Positions 3,991 to 19,914 of a stretch of 64,000 nucleotides of DNA are shown in pieces. The notes under the pieces were generated by a model. It was not told the DNA's origin. It did no database searches and worked only from the letters and a program-made list of their open reading frames with translations. The stretch spans positions 446,001 to 510,000 of the forward strand of contig NC_087391.1 of assembly GCF_963675165.1 (NCBI RefSeq), in the 5' to 3' direction. This stretch comes from Halichondria panicea (taxonomy: Eukaryota; Porifera; Demospongiae; Suberitida; Halichondriidae). Every line of letters starts with the position of its first letter. Within the stretch, counting starts at the first letter, position 1. The translations under genes were made by a program, and so were the position numbers.

Positions 3991-5678
3991 CAAGATATGA
4001 AATACTGAATTACCCATGCAGGATGGAAATCTTGGGTCGTTTTATTAGTGGACTTGGATGCGGGTAAGATTGTGTACAATGCTATAATTATATATATATG
4101 AGTCTCTTCATTTCTATGCAGCTCATTTTATATGGCTGGCCCTGTGTACATTGCTGAGATTGCTCCCATGCATATTCGAGGAACCTTGACATCTCTAATT
4201 GGCCCAACCATAGCAATGGGAATAATGACTGCCTATGTCACCAACTTCCTGCTGTACGATAAGCTGTTTGGTTGGAGGGTGTCTCGTCTACTGTCTTGTG
4301 TCTTTGGTTGTGTCTTCATTGCCGGCTTGACCGTGATGCCCAGGACCCCAAGGTAACTGTGTCTCTCAGGAATCCATGTATTTACACACTGAACTGCAGG
4401 TGGCTCATGGTGCAGGGGAGAGAGTCAGAGGCACGAGAGGTACTCAGAAAAACTGTCTCCAAGCTGGGACAGGAGGGAATTGAAGCTGAGCTAGAGGATA
4501 TTAGACAGACTCTGAAATCAGCAACAAAGCAAAATCTCTTTCAGGGAGCTTAAAGTGGTTTTGAAATGGAGAATCCTTAAACGGTACACCTGGTCTTGAA
4601 CATGCATACATTGTATGGTACCATATCTGGGTTAGTAATGCCGGGAAGGGATAATGTTGACTTACTGGCAGTGGGAGGGCATTATAGGGTTGCTTCAACT
4701 TGGAGGAAGAGAATAATGAAGTCGTTGGCTATATTGTTGTGTGTCTGGTTTGCCTCTTTATGTTAGTCTACTCATCCACCTGGTAGTAAGTTGATATTTT
4801 AGTCATTGTCTAGCTATATAATTCTTTGATTTGCAGTGTCATCCCGTTTGTTGTCACCAGTGAGATGTTTCCTTTAGAGGGACGAGGTGAGCTCTTGTTA
4901 CCTTATTATAATTATACCGTATCTAATGATTTAACAGGACTTGTTGCGGCCTTCTCCACGGCAATCAACTAGATCTCTGCATACATATTCACTCAAGCCA
5001 TTCTGGCCTCCATTAACTCGTCTGGTTCTCTGTACATGATCAGCTTGATTGACTTGGCTGCAGCTCTCTTCTTCTTATTCCTACTGCCTGAGACGAAGGT
5101 GAGTGTATATATAGTACATGTGTAGCTGTATCTTATCAATGTCCCTCTGTGCACACAGGGCTTCAGTCTCGAAGAAATGGAGAAAATATTCGAGAAACCG
5201 TGGCTTGAGAGGGTGGGGCTCACTTCCTGCTGCAGGTGCATAATCATTTTTTTGTATAATTATGTACATTTAATATAATTTTTTTTACACATGAGAATTT
5301 GCAGATTTTGTCATAGTTAAGATGTGGCTGAAGATGGTATCCCTAAGAGTGAACATGCTGTCAATGGAGTGGTGATGCTAGGGGACAAATCTGTAGAGCT
5401 TCAATATGCCAGACAAAAGAGAGAATTTGTGTTTGTGGAGGAGAATAGTAAAGACTGGGAAGAGTATTGGGAACGATACGATGTAGAAGAGACTAGAACT
5501 GCTAGCAAACAAACCACTGTGTGAATGCATGCTAGTAGTTAGTGTCAACAAGAGTGTATGAATGGCTTCATACACTCTGCATGGCCGGGGTCAAAAGTCG
5601 TTTCCTTTCATTAATTAAAAAATATGCGGTATTGTTACCAGGAATTGTTATAGTCATGCTATGCGCTAGTCGCTAGTC

Positions 5679-5757
5679 ATAGACTTGCCAGCCCCGTTTT
5701 AAACTTGTAAAACTGGGCTGGCAAGTCTACTCCAGTTTTAAACTGGTAAAACTGGGC
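5679..5757. repeat. Hairpin repeats 3' of transporter copy 1
   Basis: The motif AGACTTGCCAGCCC is followed by an AT-rich loop with AACTTGTAAAACT and then its complement. The second half is repeated once more. A similar hairpin follows transporter copy 2 at 9403-9447. The repeats therefore travelled with the gene duplication or are two members of a small foldback family. Confidence 0.5.
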
Positions 5758-5866
5758 TGGCAACTCTACTATACTGATAAGTAATTAGATCTACCTGAAT
5801 TATATGCATCTGTTTTGTATACTATACTGGTACTACACTGCATGGCACCGATTCACTGCATGTATC

Positions 5867-8800
5867 ATGGCAGCCAGAGACTGGATTTACGTTTCTTCTG
5901 TGGCATTCTTTGCTGCACTGGGTGCTTACCTGACTGGATACAGCGTTGGGTAAGTATATAGACACTGTATACTATACTGACTACTCTTATCTACTTGTCC
6001 CTTTTGATATATTAAAATGCTACTATAGTGTGTGCTTCTAAACTTGTGATAGCAGCTAACGTACTTAGAGTCATTTTGACGTGTAGCATTACTTGTTGTA
6101 AGATCAAAGGAACTATATAATACAAGATCAAAGGGACAATATGCCATGAATACACTCTGGTTTCACATAATATCGAGGCCTGGCTATGGTTATAGTTGAT
6201 GATTCTGAGTCTGCTCACGTGGATGCCATGGCGCTGCGTTTGCAGCATGGATAGTCTCGTGTTACTAGTAGATTTTGATTTTTCACCTCTACATGCACAA
6301 CGCGGCTATAGTTCGAGGCACACCATTGGCTAGCCTCGATCCTATGCCGCACTTCCTCGACCATTGGTATATTGCACATGCATGCACACTATTTACAGCC
6401 ATGTGATTATTAATTTTTGTTTTAGGGAAGAGACTCCACGCTTCTTGACTGACTCCGGTCCCACTGTATGTCAGGTGCTTTAATTATTTGTGAGTCTTTG
6501 CTGACTCGGCTGTGATTCTATAGTCTCAGTTCATGTGGCTTGCAAGTCTACATGTTGCGTGTCTGACCACAGCTGTGTTCGTCATTCCGTACAAATCTGA
6601 CTTTCTTCTGTATAGTGTACTCCTGCTAAGTCTAGTTGCTGCATGCTACAGACATGTTCATACGTACTGCACATAATGTTTATAAACACTCTGGTTGTGA
6701 TACGTTGAATATAAAACATGCAGCCGATGGTTTAGCACTTTAATGCTCTAGTTTATATTATTATGGCAAAAAAATGCAACAGTTAACACTCATTTCTAAT
6801 TGGCTATCAATCGATCTCTATATAATTTTTTATAGGGCTGTCAATGGACTGCAAAACTTTGCTGGCTATCTGGAATACTTTGATCTTGGGAACAGCTCTG
6901 CAAATTCTAGCTGCACTGAAACCTCAGATTTGAAAGAAGATGACAGGATCATACTGGTAAGGTTTATAATGTAAGCATGCAGATTGTTGTATGCATGTAA
7001 GAGTTGCATCATTATTATTTATAGGGAGCCATCATTTCGATTGTGAATCTTGGTGGAGCCTTTGGGAGCATCTTTGCTGGCAGTAAAGTTCTATTAAAAC
7101 AATTTCACGTAATTAAATGTATAATAGTATTAAGATTCTTATCCACTATATATACAGAGCCTGCTGACTACTTTGGCCGTAAAGTAACTATTATGATGTC
7201 AGGAGTGCTGGTGGTTCTTGGAGCAGCGATACAGAGTGCTGCAGTACAGGGAGCACCATGGTATATAATTATATAATTTATTGCGATATGAAATACTGAA
7301 TTACCCAGGATGGAAATCTTGGGTCGTTTTATTGGTGGACTTGGATACGGGTAAGATTTTATACAATGCTATACATGATATATGAGTCTCTTCATTTCTA
7401 TGCAGCTCATTTTATATGGCTGGCCCTGTGTACATCGCTGAGATTGCTCCCACGCATATTCGAGGAACTTTGACATCTCTAATTGGCCCAACCATAGCAA
7501 TGGGAATAATAACCGGCTATATCATCAATCACTTACTGTACGATGAGCTGTTTGGTTGGAGGGTGTCTCGTCTACTGTCTTGTGTCTTTGGTTGTGTCTA
7601 CATTGTCGGCATGACTGTGATGCCTAGGACCCCAAGGTAACTGTGTCTCTTAGGAATCCATGTATTTACACACTGAACTGCAGGTGGCTCATGGTGCAGG
7701 GGAGAGAGTCAGAGGCACGAGAGGTACTCAGAAAAACTGTCTCCAAGCTGGGACAGGAGGGAATTGAAGCTGAGCTAGAGGATATTAGACTGACTCTGAA
7801 ATCAGCAACAAAGCAAAATCTCTTTCAAGAGCTTAAAGTGATTTTGAAATGGAGAATCCTTAAACGGTATATACACCTGGCCTTAAACATGCATACATTG
7901 TATGGTACCACATATCTGGGTTAGTAATGCCAGGAAGCTAGGGATAACATAATTAGTGGCAGTGCATGGGAGGGCATTATAGGGTTACCAATACTTCTTG
8001 TGAATCCATACTTTACTATGTACTTTGTTCAGGGTCTTGCTGGGAGCTGTTATTCATATGTTTTCAGCTAGTTGTGGAACGGCAATATAGTGAGTTATCT
8101 GGTAATCATCAGTTGATATGCAGCATAATGATCATTTTCCTTGTAGTTTCTACTCTGAGCCATTGTTCTGTTCTCTGGGGATAGTTCCGTTTGTGACTGC
8201 TCTTGTGATTGGAGGATTGACTCTCTGTGGAACCACCTTCACGACCATCTTTATTGACAAGGTACAAAATAGTGAGGTTGACAACTGCACGTTATATGCT
8301 GGTCTGTTTATACAGCTTGGCAGAAAGCCGATATTGGTGGGAGGTGGTATAATGATGTTTCTCCTCTCTGGAACAGCTGCTACACTAGTCCATGCCTTCA
8401 AGTTGGAGGAAGAGAATAATGAAGTCGTCGGCTATATTGTTGTGTGTCTGGTCTGCCTCTTTATGTTAGTCTACTCATCCACCTGGTAGTAAGTTGATCT
8501 CTTAGTCATTGTCTAGCTACAAGCTTTACACTTCGATTTGCAGTGTTGTTCCGCTTGTTGTCACCAGTGAGATGTTTCCTTTGGAGGGACAAGGTGAGCT
8601 CTTGTTACCTTATTATAATTATACCGTATCTATTAATGTACATTTTCAACAGGACTTGTTGTGGCCATCTCCGTGGCAATCTACTGGGTCTTTGCATACA
8701 CATTCACTCAAGCCTTCCCCTCAATTTTGGGCTCCATTAACTCGTCTGGTTCTCTGTACATGATCAGCTTGATTGACTTGGCTGCAGCTCTCTTCTTCTT

Positions 8801-9230
8801 ATTCCTACTGCCTGAGACGAAGGTGAGTGTATATATAGTACATGTGTAGATGTATCTTATCAATGTCCCTCTGTGCACACAGGGTTTCAGTCTCGAAGAA
8901 ATGGAGAAAATATTCGAGAAACCGTGGCTTGAGAGGGTGGGGCTCACTTCCTGCTGCAGGTGCATAATCATTTTGTATGCACATTATACGCATGAGAATT
9001 AATTTTGCAGGTTTTGTCGTAGTCGGCACGGTTCCACTGAAGATGGCATCCCTACTAAGAGTGAACATGCTGTCAATGGAGTGGTGATGCTAGGGGACAA
9101 ATCTGTAGAGCTTCAATATGCCAGACAAAAGAGAGAATTTGTGGAGGAGAATAGTAAAGACTGGGAAGAGTATTGGGAACGATACGATGCAGAAAAGACT
9201 AGAACTGCTAGCAAACAAACTATTGTATGA
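5867..9230 (+). CDS. SLC2-type (MFS) sugar transporter, copy 2, intact
   Basis: Fourteen exons: 5867-5949, 6836-6956, 7025-7082, 7158-7260, 7309-7350, 7406-7636, 7684-7866, 8033-8089, 8147-8261, 8316-8488, 8544-8593, 8653-8822, 8883-8959 and 9011-9230. All junctions are GT-AG, the phases agree, and the 1683 nt give 560 aa. The start is the ATG of MAARDWIYVS, which opens the first membrane helix. Family motifs are visible: KPADYFGRK after helix 2, VYIAEIAPTHIRG in helix 4 and its loop, LGRKP after helix 8, and PETKG across exons 12-13. Members of this family carry hexoses or related polyols by facilitated diffusion or proton symport. The AEIAP and PETKG pattern resembles GLUT6/8 and plant ERD6-like carriers; the substrate cannot be read from sequence. 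The extracellular loop after helix 1 has NSSANSS glycosylation-type sites. The soluble tail is acidic and charged. Tandem neighbours on both sides are paralogues. Confidence 0.93.
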
Positions 9231-9456
9231 ATGCATGCATGCATGCACGTATGGTCATGAATCAATCAGTCATTAATTAAACTCTTTTGTGGTTAAATGT
9301 CGTTCCTTAATAATTATGTGGTGTTGTTGACCCAAATGCCATTCGGCATGCAGGCACTCTAAATGATTCGGCATGCAGGCACTCCAAATGATTCTCATAG
9401 ACTTGCCAGCCCAGTTTTAAACTGGTAAAACTGGGCTTGCGAGTCTACTATACCGG
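9231..9456. repeat. 3' flank of copy 2 with hairpin at 9403-9447
   Basis: No gene is seen. A direct repeat of ATTCGGCATGCAGGCACTC occurs twice near 9341-9385. The imperfect palindrome at 9403-9447 has stems AGACTTGCCAGCCCAGTTTTA and its near complement. The stretch ends at the CCGG target site of the Ginger element. Beyond that element, at 13898 onward, the sequence continues as in the region between copies 1 and 2. Confidence 0.55.
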
Positions 9457-9610
9457 TGTCATAGGAATGAATGACTCCCCTAAATAATGACTCCCGGTCA
9501 CTCCTACCTAGGCACCAGTGACTCCCGGTCACTCACGCCTAGGAATAAATGACTCCCCCGGTCACTGACTCCTAGTCACGAATGACTCCCCCCTGGAAAA
9601 AATGACTCCC
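9457..9610. repeat. Left terminal inverted repeat of Ginger element
   Basis: About 100 bp at the tip matches the inverted right end imperfectly. Inside the repeat the core AATGACTCCCC recurs many times with variants (TGACTCCCGGTCACTC), so it looks like a cluster of possible transposase-binding sites. The last units run on to about 9610. Confidence 0.8.
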
Positions 9611-10042
9611 CCGAAATTTATATATGAACACTGATCCATAGAGCTAAAGAGACTTCAGGGGCTATACTAAGTACATGCATCCTCAAAACCTGTCACAGTG
9701 TGACTATACAATCAAGCTCAAGACTGTTATCAGGACTGCATGCATGCTATCTGTGAGAGACCTGTTTAATACATAGTATGACTATAATTACAGCTGTTCC
9801 TTATATACTGTAAACTGGTTCAGTTTAGCTATTAGTACCTATAGTACTTATACTACATTGTACACTCTGTTCACATTTTCACACGTCTCACGGTCACTGT
9901 AAAGCAAAACTTATAATACAACAACATCCATCAAAATAACAAATAGATCTACAGTGCATGAAAAACAAACAAAACAACAGTGCAAATTAACAGTGTATAA
10001 ACAAAAACAGCTAGTGGAAGATAACGAAATGCTAAAAAAATT

Positions 10043-13000
10043 CTATCTAGATCTACAAGTAGGACAAAACCAATCTCCAAGTGGAGATACTTTAATACGA
10101 ACACATTTATAATGATACCACACAGTACATGTGTCGCACTGGACCATTTCATCATAACAGTCAGGGCGGAGACAAGGGCAGTATATCGTAATTACTATGC
10201 TGGAAAATCTTTCTGGTCTCTTGCGGCTACTAACATCTTTTGACTTTGGAAATCTTCTGAGTTTCTCATTTTCAAAGCAACGCACAAGATGTGGCCTCAT
10301 TTTGTCTTCATTTAGGGTGATGGTATCCAGATTGTCTCCTTGCAATGCGTGGTATGCAGCGGCAATTGCAAACAAACCACAGTTGTTACTGCCACTGCTC
10401 TGCTGTTGAATGGAGGCCACAGATAGTAACAGCCCATTGTGCGCTATTAAAGGCTTATACATCTGTGCGATTTGCAGCTCAGCACTTGGCTCCAGGTCTT
10501 TCCCATATTGGAAGCAGCTATCAAAGAGGAAAAGTTCCCCCTTGATGAGTGCTGTCGCAATCCAGTGATGCCTCTCTGTTACAAAGAATATCTGCACGGC
10601 TGTATAGGATATATATGATATAATTATTATACGGTACGGCCAAGGATGAGGATGAGGTATAATTATACCAATACTATAATAATACTACTATTAATTTAAG
10701 TAGAAATTATACCTGTGGCTTCACTACTAGTGACTGCAGGAAAGGACATCTTCTGAACCAGAAGAGTAGAATAACAGCCTTCAATATTTGGAAATTGCAT
10801 TCGCATCAGTTTGTGCGCAGCATACATATGACGGTCAGAAAGCATCCCGCTCTCAGCAAGAACTACATCCTTGTCTCCCGTCCTCAGGTCCAAATCCTTC
10901 ACCCAGTAACTTGAATTCTGTCGAATGTGCACACAATAATTATAATGAACGGTTTATAGTGTGCATGCACATAATTATTAATAATAATTGTAATTAACGA
11001 TAGCTCCTGTTAACAAGTATATAACTATATACCTTTCTTGTTACAGATTGAGTAGTCCTTTGCTTCTTCAAAGGTGGCTCCATAGAGGATGCAGTCTTAA
11101 CCTGAGAGAAGGGGGCGTCTCGCTTGCGAGAGGAGTGAGCATCTGGCTTGTGAGAGGAGGGGACGTCTGGCTTGTGAGAGGAGGGAGCGGCTGGCTTGTG
11201 AGAGGAGGGGACGTCTGGCTTGTGAGAGGAGGGAGCGGCTGGCTTGTGAGAGGAGGGGACGTCTGGCTTGTGAGAGGAGGGGACGTCTGGCTTGTGAGAG
11301 GAGGGAGCGGCTGGCTTGTGAGAGGAGGGGACGTCTGGCTTGTGAGAGGAGGGAGCGGCTGGCTTGTGAGAGGAGGGGACGTCTGGCTTGTGAGAGGAGG
11401 GAGCGGCTGGCTTGTGAGAGGAGGGGGCGTCTGGCTTGTGAGAAGAGGGAAAATCACAATTTTTTTCCCACAGCTTCTAAAAATGGAGTGTATAATTATA
11501 AAGAAACATGAAACATTAAATTAATATCGTAAAGAGAAATGTAATGTAATTATAATTAGCTTCAAAATCTAGAGACACATGCATTATACCTTGCTTGGGT
11601 CTTTCATAGGAGTACTCGTCAAAGAAGGGTTAAACTGATCGAGAGATTCATCGTGATGGTTGTCTGATAATTCGGAAGGATCCGAGAGAGAACTATGTTG
11701 ATCAAAGATAGGTTTTTCGGAGTCTGAGCCATGGTAATGCTTTAACCGCTGTTGGTTAACAGCCTTTTTTAAGGTCTTTCCAGTCTTAGGGTTGGCAATC
11801 TTAAAGACTCCCTTGTCCAAGCACTCCACCACCGTGTATGGGCCTAACCACCGAGGCTTCAGCTTGTCTCCCTTCTTACATTCCCTGGCTGAATTCCTCA
11901 GCCAGACCAAAGTCCCAGTCTTAAACACCTATATAATTAGAAAAATGACATGGCTATGACATTAAACGAGTAATGAAAATAGCCATGCTACGCTCATACA
12001 ATGATATAGCCTGCTCACCCTCTTGTCTGCATGCTTCCGATCATAGTACATCTTGTCCTTTTCTTGGGCATTGTCAATGTTCTTCTTGGCTTTGCTGTGG
12101 ATATCATCCTTTAACTTTGTAACAGCTCGAGCATGGGTCATAATGGCACTAATGTCCCAGCTCTGCTCAAGTTCACCCTCGCTGCCTAACTCCAGTTGAA
12201 TAGGGAGTACAGGTTTCCTGCATGTGGAATGTTATAACAATAATGCATGCATGCCAGATTATCATGTAATTATTATAATAATTATAATTATGAACAACTC
12301 ACCGACAGAACATCAACTCGAAAGGTGAATACTTCGTTGCCTTTTGCTTACTCGTCCTATAAGCAAAGAGAATAGCGGGCAAGTGGTAGTCCCAGTCGGT
12401 CTGTGAGTCATTCACATATTTGAGTAGTGCTGTTTGAAGTGTTTGATTGAAACGTTCAGTTAGCCCGTTGGTTTGTGGGTGGTAAGCTGAAGTGACCCTG
12501 TGCTCTGTTCCAGTGAATCGAAAAAGCTCTGTGTTGACCTGATTAACAAACTCACGGCCTTGGTCCGATATCAGCACCTCACAAAACCCAAACCTGCGTG
12601 CATGTATAACCATAATCATTAAATACGTGTTATTATAATTATGTGTAGAGATGCATGTGATTACAATTTCACACACATGCATAGCTTACCGACAAAACAA
12701 GTTGTACAGGAACATTGCCACTCCAAATGCAGTTTTGTCAGGGAGTGGGGCTGCTTCAGCCCATTTGCTAAAATAATCGACCAATGTTACCACATATTTG
12801 CTGCCATTGGGTGTAATCGGCAAAGGTCCTATCAAGTCTATGCCAACCTATAAAGTGAATTACATAATTATAATTAATATATGATTGTGCTCAAAACAAA
12901 TAATTATTATGCAATGCCATAAAAATTATAGTGTACATATACCTGATGCCAGACTTTGGGTTGTACAGATATCGGATGGAGTTTGGCATTTGTCTTTACA

Positions 13001-13467
13001 AATGCTGGGTTCATTCTCTGGCACTGGCTGCAGTTCTTTACATACTCTCGAATCTCCTCCACCATCGACTTCCAGTAGAATCTAGAACATATCTTGTCTA
13101 TAGTTCTATCTCTTCCAAAGTGGCCACCAGCTGTTCCTGCATGCATGCGTATAATAGATTACAAGCATACATAATTACATACATGCTCTATTACCTACTA
13201 TTATCATTTTACCAAAGCCATAATAATTATTATACCTGCATGGCAATCTTCGAGGATTCTTGATTTCTCCTCATTGCTGCGCACACATATCCTCCAGTCA
13301 GCTGCATCAGCAGCTTTGGTGTGCTTCTTGTAATATAGGCTACCATTTTCAAACTTAAAGTTCTGCCTGCATTTTCTTCTAAAGTTTGCCTTCTCTGTTT
13401 TGCTGTTAATAGTAGGAGGGTATTCTCCTTTTCGTAAATAGTTTTCAATCTCTTGTAAATTCTCCAT
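10043..13467 (-). CDS. Ginger transposase: integrase, GPY/F, Ulp1 protease, PHD finger
   Basis: Nine exons read right to left: 13236-13467, 12943-13136, 12690-12847, 12303-12593, 12019-12217, 11590-11928, 11033-11476, 10713-10917 and 10043-10599. All use GT-AG sites, and the 2619 nt stay in frame for 872 aa. Domains in order: an HHCC zinc motif (HAGTAGGH...CSQC, about 75-120); an integrase core with catalytic D146 (GIDLIG), D205 (SDQG) and E241 (GLTERFN), with the usual 35 residues between the last two; a GPY/F module (RWLGPYTV, about 385-405); a proline-serine repeat region with a basic PPLKKQR stretch (472-619); an Ulp1/C48-type cysteine protease with H699, D714 and C761 (NNCGLF); and a C-terminal PHD-like zinc finger (CDTCTVWYHYKCV). 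The integrase part cuts and joins transposon ends in the nucleus. The protease part may process SUMO or the polyprotein. Nothing in the frame is broken, so the element may be active. Confidence 0.9.
11125..11452 (-). repeat. 24-bp coding minisatellite in Ginger exon 7
   Basis: About 13 units of 24 bp encode an eight-residue repeat alternating PSSHKPDV and PSSHKPAA. Because each unit is a multiple of three, all frames stay open and unit-number changes keep the gene in frame. The chosen frame joins correctly to exons on both sides and ends in a basic PPLKKQRTTQ stretch. Confidence 0.85.
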
Positions 13468-13794
13468 TTCTTGCTGCCTTCTTCAAATGACATGACTGTG
13501 AACGATCACTGGTTTTATACCATAGATCTAGCTGTCACTTGCTGTCAACTACAGGATAGAACAATTAACCTTGCAACTCTGCTCTTCACACATTTATAGG
13601 TCTACATTCCAGCTGTCACTTGCTGTCTACTACAGGATGAACACTTGCTTCATTGCTACCTTGCATGCTACTACTAACCTTGCTCTTCATCCTGCATGGC
13701 TCTTCATTCTCTACTATATGTCTATGAGGAGTGCATGAATGTACTCTTGCTACTATATACTTACATTGATGGCAACATTGGCGGAACAAACATG

Positions 13795-13893
13795 CGCATA
13801 GGGGAGTCATTTATTCCTGGGGGAGTCACCCACACCTTAGGCAGGAATGACCGGGGAGTCACTCCCACCGGGGAGTCATTCATTCCTCTGACA
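13795..13893. repeat. Right terminal inverted repeat of Ginger element
   Basis: About 100 bp with repeated GGGGAGTCATT(T/C)ATTCCT cores in inverted orientation to the left end. It ends in ...CTGACA followed by the CCGG target copy at 13894-13897. Confidence 0.8.
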
Positions 13894-13970
13894 CCGGTAA
13901 CTATAAATTTAATATGCATCTGTTTCATATTTCATACTATGCATGCAGTAATTGCCTTTATCACTGTATC

Positions 13971-16900
13971 ATGGCAGCCAGAGACTGGATTTACGTTTCT
14001 TCTGTGGCATTCTTTGCTGCACTGGGTGCTTTCTTGTGTGGATACAGCATTGGGTAAGACTATACATAGGGGTAGGAAGATGTTTTACCTAAGGGGGGCA
14101 AACAATATGTTATACCAATATCACTGGTAGTACTACTGTCAGACAGACTTGAAAAAGTAATCTTGGCCTGATACATTGTTATTTTTGCCACATGCTCACA
14201 ATATTTTTTCAATTAGAGAGCAGTGCTGGCTAAGGGGGGCGAAAAAGCAAAATATTTGGCTGAGGGGGGCAACTGCCCCCCTTGCCCCCCTGGTTCCTAC
14301 GCCTATGCTATAATGTAGACACTACTGACTAATATGATGGTATTGTCCCTTTGATATTTATATATTATATCTATAGTGTGTGCCTCTATAATCTGTCTAA
14401 CTTGTTAATCTGTCTAACTTGTGATTGTAGCTACGGTACCTAGAGTCTACATGCGTCATTTTGACGTGTAGCATTACTTTATAAGATCAAAGAAAAATGT
14501 ACTTCGGTGCTCTAGTTTATAATTATGGTAAAATATGCAACAAATTAATTAGTTATCACCTATTTCTAATTATGCATGAGGCTGTCAATCGATGTCTCTA
14601 TTGAATATAGGTCTTACAATGGGCTGCAAAACTTTGCTGGTTATCTAGAGTACTTCGATCTTGGGAGCAGCACTGCAAATTCTAGCTGCACTGAAACCTC
14701 AGACTTGAAAGAAGATGACAGGATCATACTGGTAAGGTTTATAATGTAAGCATGCAGATTGTTATATGCATGCATGCATCATTATCATTATTTTAATATA
14801 TAGGGATCCATCATTTCGATTTTGAGTCTTGGTGGAGCTGTTGGTAATCTCTTTGCTGGCAGTAAGTTCAACACAACATCCGTTATTATTACACTGTTAC
14901 TATATATACAGAGCCTGCTGACTACTTTGGCCGTAAAGTAACTATTATGATGTCAGGAGTGCTGATAGTTCTTGGAGCAGCGATACAGTGTGCTGCAGTA
15001 CAGGGAGCACCATGGTAAAATCAAGAGTACTTTCATGTTCATTGCGATATGAAACACTTATTAATTACCCACTAGGATGGAAATCTTGGGTCGTTTTATT
15101 GGTGGACTTGGATATGGGTAAGAGATTGTTATTGGATTGCACAATGCATGCCATGAGTCGATCTGTGCAGCTCATTCTATTTGGCTGGCCCTGTGTACAT
15201 TGCTGAGATTGCTCCAACGCATATTCGAGGAACCTTGACATCTCTTATCGGCCCAACCATAGCAATGGGAATAATGACTGGCTATGTCACCAACTTCCTG
15301 CTGTACGATGAGCTGTTTGGTTGGAGGGTGTCTCGTCTACTGTCTTGTGTCTTTGGTTGTGTCTACATTGCCGGCATGACCTTAATGCCCAGGACCCCAA
15401 GGTAACTGTGTCTCTTAGGAATCCATGTATTTACACACTGAACTGCAGGTGGCTCATGGTGCAGGGGAGAGAGTCAGAGGCACGAGAGGTACTCAGAAAA
15501 ACTGTCTCCAAGTTGGGACAGGAGGGAATTGAAGCTGAGCTAGAGGATATTAGACAGTCTTTGAACTCGGGACCAAAGATTAATATCTTACAGGAGCTTA
15601 AACTAATTCTGAAATGGAGAAATCTTAAACGGTATACAGCTGGTCATAGAACATGAATTGTATGGTACCATACATGACTGTGTTACAGGGTTGCGTGGTT
15701 GCGTGGTAGTGCCCAGAGGGGATAATGTATAATTAAGGGACATTTACAGGGTAAATTCCTATCAGGGCATTATTGGGGTTGCCAAAACTACGTGTGAGTC
15801 CATGCATCGTTTACTGTGTACTCTGTATAATTATAGGGTCTTGCTGGGAGCACCTCTTCACATGTTTTCAGCTGCTTGTGGAACAGCAATATAGTGAGCT
15901 ACCTGGTAATCATCATTTGATCCGCAGCATAATTATTACAGTTATTATTTTCCCTGTATATAGTTTCTACTCTGAGCCGTTGTTCTGTTCTCTGGGGATA
16001 GTTCCGTTTGTGACTGCTCTTGTGATTGGAGGATTGACTCTCTGTGGAACCACCTTCACGACCATCTTTATCGACAAGGTATAAAATACTGACACATTTC
16101 TCAGTGCTTATTTAACACGTGCATGCTACTGTGTATATAGCGGGTAATTTTCGTAGGGCAAAATATCTGTGGTTTTTGTGGTTGAAGCCTAGCTGAGGAA
16201 GCTGCATGGGTTGAAGCTCTGACCACCAATATATTACCCACGAATGAAGCGACCTTGGTTACTTTTACCATAGATAGAACAGTAGGAGGGATTGGAAACG
16301 AAAATGTTTGCGTGAAATACTCCGTGTTATAGGGTGTGGCTAAAACTACAAAGGATTATTTTTATAGTCAGCATGCTCATTACCTGTCTTGACTGCTCTA
16401 CAATGTGCTGTGCATAGAAACAGTGAAATTGATCTGTGGTTTTTGTGGTTGAAGCCTAGCTGAGGAAGCTGCATGGGTTGAAGCTCTGACCACCAATATA
16501 TTACCCACGAATGAAGCGACCTTGGTTACTTTTACCATAGATAGAACAGTAGGAGGGATTGGAAACGAAAATGTTTGCGTGAAATACTCCGTGTTATAGG
16601 GTGTGGCTAAAACTACAAAGGATTATTTTTATAGTCAGCATGCTCATTACCTGTCTTGACTGCTCTACAATGTGCTGTGCATAGAAACAGTGAAATTGAT
16701 CTGTGGTTTTTGTGGTTGAAGCCTAGCTGAGGAAGCTGCATGGGTTGAAGCTCTGACCACCAATATATTACCCACGAATGAAGCGACCTTGGTTACTTTT
16801 ACCATAGATAGAACAGTAGGAGGGATTGGAAACGAAAATGTTTGCGTGAAATACTCCGTGTTATAGGGTGTGGCTAAAACTACAAAGGATTATTTTTTAT

Positions 16901-19578
16901 AGTCAGCATGCTCATTACCTGTCTTGACTGCTCTACAATGTGCTGTGCATAGAAACAGTGAAATTGATCTGTGGTTTTTGTGGTTGAAGCCTAGCTGAGG
17001 AAGCTGCATGGGTTGAAGCTCTGACCACCAATATATTACCCACGAATGAAGCGACCTTGGTTACTTTTACCATAGATAGAACAGTAGGAGGGATTGGAAA
17101 CGAAAATGTTTGCGTGAAATACTCCGTGTTATAGGGTGTGGCTAAAACTACAAAGGATTATTTTTATAGTCAGCATGTTCATTACCTGTCTTGACTGCTC
17201 TACAATGTGCTGTGCATAGAAACAGTGAAATTGATCTGTGGTTTTTGTGGTTGAAGCCTAGCTGAGGAAGCTGCATGGGTTGAAGCTCTGACCACCAATA
17301 TATTACCCACGAATGAAGCGACCTTGGTTACTTTTACCATAGATAGAACAGTAGGAGGGATTGGAAACGAAAATGTTTGCGTGAAATACTCCGTGTTATA
17401 GGGTGTGGCTAAAACTACAAAGGATTATTTTTTATAGTCAGCATGCTCATTACCTGTCTTGACTGCTCTACAATGTGCTGTGCATAGAAACAGTGAAATT
17501 GATCTGTGGTTTTTGTGGTTGAAGCCTAGCTGAGGAAGCTGCATGGGTTGAAGCTCTGACCACCAATATATTACCCACGAATGAAGCGACCTTGGTTACT
17601 TTTACCATAGATAGAACAGTAGGAGGGATTGGAAACGAAAATGTTTGCGTGAAATACTCCGTGTTATAGGGTGTGGCTAAAACTACAAAGGATTATTTTT
17701 ATAGTCAGCATGCTCATTACCTGTCTTGACTGCTCTACAATGTGCTGTGCATAGAAACAGTGAAATTGATCACTTTTAATGTTGATTTTTCTAAAAAGTA
17801 AAGAGAATCTAGCTCTAAAAAGTCAACTAAGCCACTCAGCCACTATCACTAAACAAATAACTGCTATAAAAAAAAAAGGAATAGCTCTTACTATGAAGTC
17901 GTGAGAGGTCAAGGCCCGTGGTGTGTCTAAAAGTATACTAAAAGTATACTAAAGCAGTCTGAAGGACTATACTGCAAACGTTTATGGACAGTATAACTTA
18001 TCCATAGCATGAAGCCATTCTATGTAGCACTTAGATACATAATAACCAAGTCAAGCAATGTACTTTGCTGTTTTGACTCCACAGCAAGGAAAGAGAAAAA
18101 AGTTGACATAGAGTAATTCAAGCTTAACTCAACAAAAATTGGAAACAGAGTAAATACAACGGACTCAGAGCTTGTCAGTGGTATAAACTTACTTCTCTAG
18201 AGTACCTCCCAGCTTCTGAGTGATCGCTAGTGGATAGGAGAGCTAGAAACAGTTAAAATACAACACAGAACGATCAACCACGAAAATATTTGCGAGCGCG
18301 AAATATAACGCGGAGTGTTACAACCTTTTACACAGGGGGGCCTGGTCGTTTCCAATCCCTCTTACTGTTCTATCTATGCTTTTACCTGCAGCAACTACGA
18401 AAATATTATCCACTAAATATTGCTCAACCACGAATTCCCCCCTCCCTAACATTACTCTCCATACAGTACACTTGTCTGTTTATACAGCTTGGCAGAAAGC
18501 CGATGCTGGTGGGAGGTGGTATAATGATGTTTCTCTTCACTGGAACAGCTGCTACACTAGTCTATGCCTTCGACTTGGAGGAAGAAAATGATGAAGTCGT
18601 CGGCTATATTGTTGTGTGTCTGGTCTGCCTCTTTATGTTAGTCTACTCATCCACCTGGTAGTAAGTTGATCTTTTAGTCATAGTGCTACAGGCTTTATAC
18701 TCTTTGATCTGCAGTGTCATTCCGTGGATTGTCACCAGTGAGATGTTTCCTTTGGAGGGACGAGGTACGTAAGCTCTTGTTACCTTATCCTCGCCACTGA
18801 AGTCTATTCCTAGTTATACATACACTATACTTATAGCCTCCATAATCAGCCATTTTGTGTAGCTATCTTTGAGAACCCATAATAATGTGTTGTGATTGCA
18901 ATATATAATAGCTCTCTGATTACAATTAAAGCAAAAGCTATAATTGTCGTTCACCATGCATTTGAAACAATTTAAAGCTGTACATTTATTCAACAGGACT
19001 TGTTGTGGCCATCTCCACGGCAATCAACTGGGTCTTTGCATACACATTCAATCAAGCCTTTCCCTCAATTCTGGCCTCCATTAACTCGTCTGGTTCTCTG
19101 TACATGATCAGCTTGATTGACTTGGCTGCAGCTCTCTTCTTATTATTCTTACTGCCTGAGACGAAGGTGAGTGTATATATAGTACATGTGTAGCTGTATC
19201 TTATCAATGTCCCTCTGTGCACACAGGGCTTCAGTCTCGAAGAAATGGAGAAAATATTCGAGAAACCGTGGCTTGAGAGGGTGGGGCTCACTTCCTGCTG
19301 CAGGTGCATAATCATTTTTGTATGTACATACGCATGAGAATTAATTTTGCAGGTTTTGTCATAGTCGGCACGGTTCCACTGAAGATGGTATCCCTACTAA
19401 GAGTAAACATGCTGTCAATGGAGTGGTGATGCTAGGGGACAAATCTATAGAGCTTCAATATGCCAGACAAAAGAGAGAATTTGTGTTTGTGGAGGAGAAT
19501 AGTAAAGACTGGGAAGAGTATTGGGAACGATACGATGCAGAAGAGACTAGAACTGCTAGCAAACAAACTATTGTGTGA
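13971..19578 (+). CDS. SLC2-type sugar transporter, copy 3, intact
   Basis: Fourteen exons: 13971-14053, 14611-14731, 14804-14861, 14912-15014, 15076-15117, 15171-15401, 15449-15631, 15837-15893, 15964-16078, 18488-18660, 18715-18764, 18997-19166, 19227-19303 and 19353-19578. Every exon has the same length and phase as in copy 2 except the last, which is 6 bp longer. The predicted protein is 562 aa. It keeps ADYFGRK, VYIAEIAPTHIRG, LGRKPM and PETKG, and has SYNGLQNFAG at the exon 1-2 join. The role is the same as for copy 2: a 12-helix facilitative or proton-linked carrier of sugars or polyols. Intron 9 is expanded to 2.4 kb by a tandem array and transposon-like sequence. Intron 1 carries a MITE. 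The very high similarity to copies 1 and 2 in coding and intronic sequence points to recent tandem duplication. Confidence 0.93.
14065..14307. mobile_element. MITE in intron 1 of copy 3
   Basis: The ends are inverted copies of CATAGG(G/C)GTAGGAA. The interior is rich in G6 and C6 runs (GAGGGGGGCAACTGCCCCCC). It has no coding potential. It is absent from the matching introns of the paralogues. The superfamily is not clear from the ends. Confidence 0.6.
16141..18440. repeat. Transposon-like sequence filling intron 9 of copy 3
   Basis: The left end (GCGGGTAATTTTCG) and the right part near 18276-18440 (CCACGAAAATATTTGCG, then an inverted copy of the AACAGTAGGAGGGATTGG segment, ending CCACGAATTC) resemble the inverted ends of the CCGTATAGC-type MITEs elsewhere in this window. 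The interior includes the six-copy 267-bp array. In copies 2 and 4 the same intron is about 50 bp, so all of this is an insertion. The exact element limits are uncertain. Confidence 0.5.
16165..17770. repeat. Six-copy 267-bp tandem array
   Basis: Units begin with ATCTGTGGTTTTTGTGGTTG at 16165, 16432, 16699, 16967, 17234 and 17502, and the array closes at 17769. Two units have one extra T in a T-run and one has a single C-to-T change; otherwise they look identical. Such uniformity means recent amplification or gene conversion. Each unit has a segment CCACGAATGAAGCGACC and the AACAGTAGGAGGGATTGG segment found inverted at the right end of the intron. Confidence 0.92.
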
Positions 19579-19914
19579 ATGCATGGTAGTTTGGTTTAGC
19601 CTGACAATCAAGCTGTGCATGTATAAGCAATCATTATTTTTGTAAAATTATTGCCCAGCTGATACCTTCACTGGCCTCGAAGTAAGTGCGGCCTAGGAGC
19701 GAGGATAATACGTTACAATAGAGAAAAGTCGGACTAGTCTAAGGGTCAAAATCTTGTTTACTTAGAGTCGACCCTTTACCATCTTAAGCTGTTTATAATT
19801 ACCTTAGCTTACAAGCTAGCTAGCTAGCTAGCTATAAATATCCAACACTCAAGCCTAGCCTTCTAGCAACTCGCTGTCAAACAACCGATAAATTAAAGTA
19901 TTACTGAACGTGAT
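19579..19914. other. Intergenic, likely DENND5 promoter and 5' leader
   Basis: This 336-bp gap separates the stop of transporter copy 3 from the DENND5 start. It includes a run of GCTAGCTA units at about 19815-19830 and ctataaatat at 19831-19841, which could act as a TATA-like element, but transcription starts cannot be fixed from sequence alone. Confidence 0.35.

Follow-up and report, generated by a model that had tools for sequence, protein, structure and literature searches.

The 4,437-bp element at positions 9457–13893 of the window (the whole 64,000-nucleotide stretch of DNA analyzed here) is probably a complete and autonomous Ginger1 cut-and-paste DNA transposon that was amplified very recently, and we put the probability of this sequence-based reading at about 0.94. 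It is identified as Ginger1 because of its ends, its target-site duplication, the order of its protein domains, and the lack of a detected reverse transcriptase (RT). The element is a good further Ginger1 of a known family and not a novel type of element.

Ends and target site of the element

The gene lies on the minus strand, and the limits of the element are exactly those given in a preliminary description of this DNA, which had regarded it as an intact, full-length Ginger1. The element ends are TGTCATAGGAATGAATGACTCCCC and, reversed, TGTCAGAGGAATGAATGACTCCCC, with CCGG directly outside on the left (9453–9456) and on the right (13894–13897). The termini (TGTCA...TGACA) thus have the TGTNR form of Ginger1. 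A self-match of the ends and their alignment delimited the left (9457–9558, plus strand) and right (13801–13893, minus strand) terminal inverted repeats (TIRs), which are imperfect: 102 left and 93 right positions were aligned, and 73% were identical. Six TGACTCCC motifs are present in the first 155 bp (9472–9610, plus strand; starts at 9472, 9488, 9519, 9550, 9583, and 9603), and four are found in the last 93 bp, on the minus strand of the right TIR. All of them face inward, and the motif is absent from the remainder of the element, with a total of 11 in the window. The TGACTCCC repeats are described here as candidate transposase-binding repeats. When the genome was searched with CCGG plus the 24-base terminus (≤3 mismatches), a pattern that favors CCGG sites by including CCGG, 66 matches were found, whereas the reversed pattern gave none, indicating that the element ends did not arise by chance.

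Predicted gene and protein

Joining nine GT–AG exons on the minus strand, from 13467 down to 10043, reproduced the nine-exon transposase of 872 codons plus stop without a frame break that had been proposed previously. The exon model was chosen by frame, GT–AG borders, and homology, and it is a prediction from DNA rather than from RNA. Exon 1 (13236–13467) begins with the start codon at 13467 and contains a candidate YPYY-like stretch; by inspection, EYPP occurs at residue 16, and SLYY precedes the zinc-binding domain. Exon 2 (12943–13136) encodes the greater part of the H2C2 domain, which binds zinc. The catalytic residues named in the preliminary description, D146 in exon 3 (12690–12847) and D205 and E241 in exon 4 (12303–12593), are all present in the spliced protein. 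Exon 5 (12019–12217) is followed by exon 6 (11590–11928), which covers the GPY motif region; RWLGPYTVV is read in the protein, and a weak SH3_Tf2-1 match of Pfam lies at the same place below the cut-off. The linker with eight-residue repeats is encoded by exon 7 (11033–11476). Exon 8 (10713–10917) precedes exon 9 (10043–10599), which encodes the Ulp1-like protease residues (H699, D714, Q753, and C761) and the PHD finger (residues 828–869).

In the window protein, Pfam detected H2C2 (PF17921, 5.7e-20), rve (PF00665, 1.3e-09), and PHD (4.5e-07). Among solved structures, the best relatives of the first 426 residues were Ty3 Gag-Pol (3.4e-30) and prototype foamy virus (PFV) integrase (1.2e-21). 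Peptidase_C48 had no Pfam match in the window protein itself, in which the four Ulp1-type residues follow the core and precede the PHD finger. Its 50%-identical counterpart in a second Ginger1 family (L053) matches Peptidase_C48 above the cut-off (3.8e-06), and the H, D, Q, and C residues are common to both proteins. Through this relative and the shared residues, the tail is assigned as Ulp1-like. The Pfam scan of 10 further ORFs of the element revealed no other family.

Exon 7 contains a 24-bp coding minisatellite (11103–11449, minus strand) with 14.5 copies by TRF. The number of SHKP units is 10, 11, or 13 across the 13 intact copies of the element, and copies that differ only in this repeat number provide a built-in comparison. 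The second Ginger1 family also has a 24-bp minisatellite of different sequence in the same linker (22.8 copies in L054 and 8.8 in L049). Because both families hold such repeats, the linker seems to favor eight-residue repeats.

Sister copies and recent movement

The genome searched comprises 131.5 Mb in 39 contigs, and the DNA search with the element gave at least 112 matches. Twenty near-full-length copies, including the window copy, were collected with 600-bp flanks; 18 were matched in one piece of ≥4.1 kb, and the remaining two were in two pieces. The search for near-identical further copies was successful, and sister copies lie on many chromosomes besides that of the window. One other copy, on another contig, is identical to the window element over 4,437 bp, and three differ from it by one substitution without any indel over the same length. 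Another copy has a 4-bp insertion but no substitution outside the minisatellite. In 13 of the 20 copies, the frame is uninterrupted between the ATG and the stop codon, the exons have GT–AG borders, and 848 to 874 residues are encoded; the changes in coding length among the open copies are multiples of three. One of the open copies (L024) lies inside the diverged group (dS 0.030 and dN 0.009 versus the window copy), and thus intact members occur in two lineages. Eight copies have several coding changes, and their dN/dS versus the window copy was 0.20–0.32 (L022–L026 and L028), 0.39 (L021), and 0.49 (L027). These values suggest constraint, with the qualification that the ratio of a diverged copy blends the time before and after inactivation and that dead copies drift.

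A matching 4-bp duplication was found in 16 of the 20 copies (nine CCGG, three CCGT, two ACGG, one TGGG, and one CCGA), so that CCGG or CCGT/ACGG accounts for 14 of the 16. No matching duplication was readable in the other four copies (L014, L025, L026, and L028). The base before the duplication is A in 10 of the 16 cases, and the base after it is T in 11.

Near-identical, open copies with duplications at unrelated sites indicate that the family was mobile very recently, as far as genomic sequence can tell. The sequences could also have been multiplied by segmental or assembly duplication instead of transposition, but we consider this highly improbable. A separate 4-bp duplication accompanies each of the 16 copies, and their 600-bp flanks are unrelated at E ≤ 1e-10 except for one pair, the right flank of L020 and the left flank of L024, both of which abut another repeat that they have in common. 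Segmental duplication was rejected on account of the unrelated flanks. A more serious alternative is a burst that has finished, so that copies of recent origin would belong to a family that has since been silenced or become immobile. The seven broken copies among the 20 are consistent with such an end, whereas the open-frame copies that occupy unrelated sites and are identical or differ by one substitution argue against it, and we regard it as possible but rather unlikely.

It is similarly very hard to uphold that the element is the remnant of a Gypsy retrotransposon integrase without LTRs, and not a DNA transposon. The resemblance of the integrase part to the Ty3 and PFV integrases would agree with this origin. 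However, the terminal repeats are inverted and not direct, no RT family was detected in the ORFs scanned by Pfam (8, 1, and 10 proteins), full-length sister copies have target duplications and open frames, and the Ulp1 and PHD tail is that of published Ginger1. For the window copy, the Gypsy remnant was ruled out by the inverted ends and the absence of RT from the scanned ORFs.

A recently mobile Ginger1 transposon is thus the preferred interpretation. The preliminary description had considered the element a good candidate for activity, and this proposal is strengthened by the near-identical copies and the 13 open frames; among candidates for an active Ginger1, the window element is an unusually good one. 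The accompanying statement that most copies are decayed does not apply to the near-full-length copies of this genome. In the available excerpts of the description of Ginger1 (PMC2836005), activity was inferred solely from low divergence. With 13 open, near-identical full-length copies, the activity of an integrase-like Ginger1 transposase becomes directly testable.

Deleted relatives of about 1.2–1.6 kb were also observed (L029–L048), in which the left end up to element position 1053 is joined to 4108–4437. This joint is present in at least nine of the 20 loci, which suggests one old deletion that was later mobilized in trans.

Proposed transposition mechanism

Here, we propose how the element may move. 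The spliced 872-residue protein would bind the TGACTCCC repeats near both ends. The integrase-type DDE core would then excise the element and join it to the target at nicks staggered by 4 bp, with a probable preference for (A)CCGG(T). Repair of the 4-bp stagger would then duplicate the four target bases. In the tail, the Ulp1-like and PHD parts may act on SUMO/ubiquitin-like marks and chromatin of the host, a guess from the domain names. A gain of copies by a cut-and-paste element would stem from transposition during replication or from templated gap repair.

Comparison with known elements

Among DNA transposons, Ginger1 encodes the relatives of retroviral and Gypsy integrases, and these transposases have been domesticated on more than one occasion. 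The window protein resembles the Gypsy/Ty3 integrase in its fold and in the order of the zinc-binding domain, DDE core, and GPY region, Ty3 being the best solved match, and the element differs from Gypsy/Ty3 in the lack of a detected RT, in the inverted repeats present instead of LTRs, and in the Ulp1 and PHD tail. With Ginger2/TDD, it shares an integrase-type DDE transposase, TIRs, and a 4-bp duplication in metazoan members. In the excerpted text of PMC2836005, Ginger2 targets AT-rich RTATAY and is without GPY/F and YPYY. The element described here has a CCGG target and LGPY, and these two features ruled out its identity as Ginger2.

The domain content and target preference had been said to follow published descriptions, and the ends, duplication, and domain order, with no RT detected, bear this out. 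As far as the excerpts of Bao, Kapitonov and Jurka (2010, PMC2836005) extend, TGTNR termini, 4-bp CCGG or CCGT duplications, and an integrase with H2C2, DDE, and GPY/F are common to Ginger1 and the window element, which also lies within the Ginger1 ranges of TIR (40–270 bp) and length (2.6–7 kb). The published target duplications in this text are CCGG in 75% and CCGT/ACGG in 24% of cases, and the single TGGG and CCGA duplications found here are outside these classes. The Ginger1 C terminus contains OTU or Ulp1 and, in some members, PHD; Ulp1 plus PHD, as in the window element, is listed for Ginger1-9_HM in Table 1 of the same source. The same table gives 0 to 4 introns, whereas eight are predicted here, and no mention of a coding 24-bp linker minisatellite was found in these portions of the description. 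Imagin and other domesticated Ginger1 genes originate from the same transposase family; according to the excerpts of PMC12863088, Imagin no longer has the catalytic E and exists as a host gene in single copy, whereas the element described here is multicopy and has D, D, and E.

Other Ginger1 families and abutting elements

The second Ginger1 family (L049–L055) has the ends TGTCATAAAATTTTGGGCCCCC and encodes Ulp1 and PHD in addition to its own 24-bp coding minisatellite. It is about 45–47% identical to the window family in the core, and 260 of its termini were found genome-wide (≤2 mismatches). A third Ginger1-like family (L059 from 2043, and L060) starts with TGTCATAGGATAGAACC after CCGG, and in the core its protein shares 55–58% identity with the window protein.

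A search for the second-family end, followed by four bases left free (N) and TGTCA of another element, gave 15 matches that represent 11 distinct junctions (C2:3340243, C6:145722, C8:844033, C17:2971127, and seven others). The four bases common to the abutting elements read CCGG at 10 junctions and CCGT at the remaining one. The abutting elements belong to the same or different families and are arranged head to head or head to tail; the window element's family takes part in four junctions, at least four join the second family to itself, and the third family takes part in one. Because ...CA-CCGG-TG... creates the favored A-CCGG-T, one insertion may offer the next insertion its target. The junctions of abutting elements bear on target choice.

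Palindromic 4-bp insertions

The small insertions in diverged Ginger1 copies are mostly of 4 bp and self-complementary. Each distinct 4-bp indel whose 8-bp flanks were identical was counted, and the expectation was obtained from random tetramers in the same places. Self-complementary tetramers accounted for 44 of 61 distinct events versus ~5 expected: 22 of 28 in the window family (expectation, 2.5), 14 of 21 in the deleted derivatives (1.8), five of five in paralogous window stretches outside the element (0.4), and only three of seven in the second Ginger1 family (0.5). Such events were noted in exons and introns of L014–L028 and at window positions 4015, 7868, 14796, 48301, and 52772. Most of the palindromic insertions are accompanied by a 2-bp duplication, XY → XY.rc(XY).XY, as in TG → TGCATG, AG → AGCTAG, TT → TTAATT, and TC → TCGATC; TA → TAATTA is a variant. 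Six of the seven broken copies carry a palindromic insertion in an exon, and L026 has none. By a hand recount, these insertions account for 8 of the 16 distinct sites at which the exonic frame is broken in the seven copies and are the commonest such lesion there; the other exonic frame-breaking changes are of 1, 2, 7, 10, and 22 bp.

In the window minus the element, XY.rc(XY).XY words were 1.81 times as frequent as expected (0.82–1.03 in 20 simulations). The ratio was 1.68 in three arbitrary 8-kb stretches of the genome (simulations, 0.74–1.14), in which the rank-first count of 4 of 16 was within the simulations (0–4). Other XYNNXY words were mildly raised in the genome (1.17–1.18). In a 50-kb control from Escherichia coli, the ratio was 0.58, below its simulations (0.80–0.99). 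Among the 16 dinucleotides, rc(XY) ranks first for eight, fifth or sixth for CC, GG, and TA, and last (16 of 16) for AT.

These data raise the idea, to which we give roughly even odds, that the genome has a strong genome-wide mutational habit of inserting self-complementary tetramers with a 2-bp duplication. Against this idea stand the low palindromic share in the second Ginger1 family, the ranks for AT, CC, GG, and TA, the rank-first count in the arbitrary stretches, the E. coli ratio outside its own simulations, the mild rise of other XYNNXY words, and the frame-breaking changes of other lengths. Hairpin-type end repair is known from P nucleotides, and the pattern looks like the result of hairpin opening (P-nucleotide-like) or of templated end joining at breaks with a 2-nt stagger, which are possible causes. 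A literature search of titles and abstracts, limited in coverage, retrieved no description of a palindromic or 4-bp insertion habit. If true, the habit would help explain the richness of the genome in GCATGCATGC and TAATTA. These self-complementary 4-bp insertions point toward a repair mechanism that merits its own study, and together with the abutting elements they may matter more than the Ginger1 copy itself.

Genomic neighborhood

Tandem sugar-transporter genes span about 5870–19600 of the window. The element is located in the spacer between two members of this array, just upstream of the ATG at ~13972, and the exons on either side of it match Pfam Sugar_tr (1.1e-14 and 1e-14). A paralogous empty site had been reported near 5760–5800. 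The joined flanks of the element match 5732–5960 (plus strand), and a paralogue without the element is indeed present there, but it is diverged (77.7% over 233 bp) and reads CTGA, not CCGG, at the target place. By its sequence, this site is an element-free tandem paralogue and not an exact empty allele. Six 267-bp tandem repeats with 99% matches were also observed in the sugar-transporter gene region (16165–17771), and each of them holds a similar minus-strand ORF.
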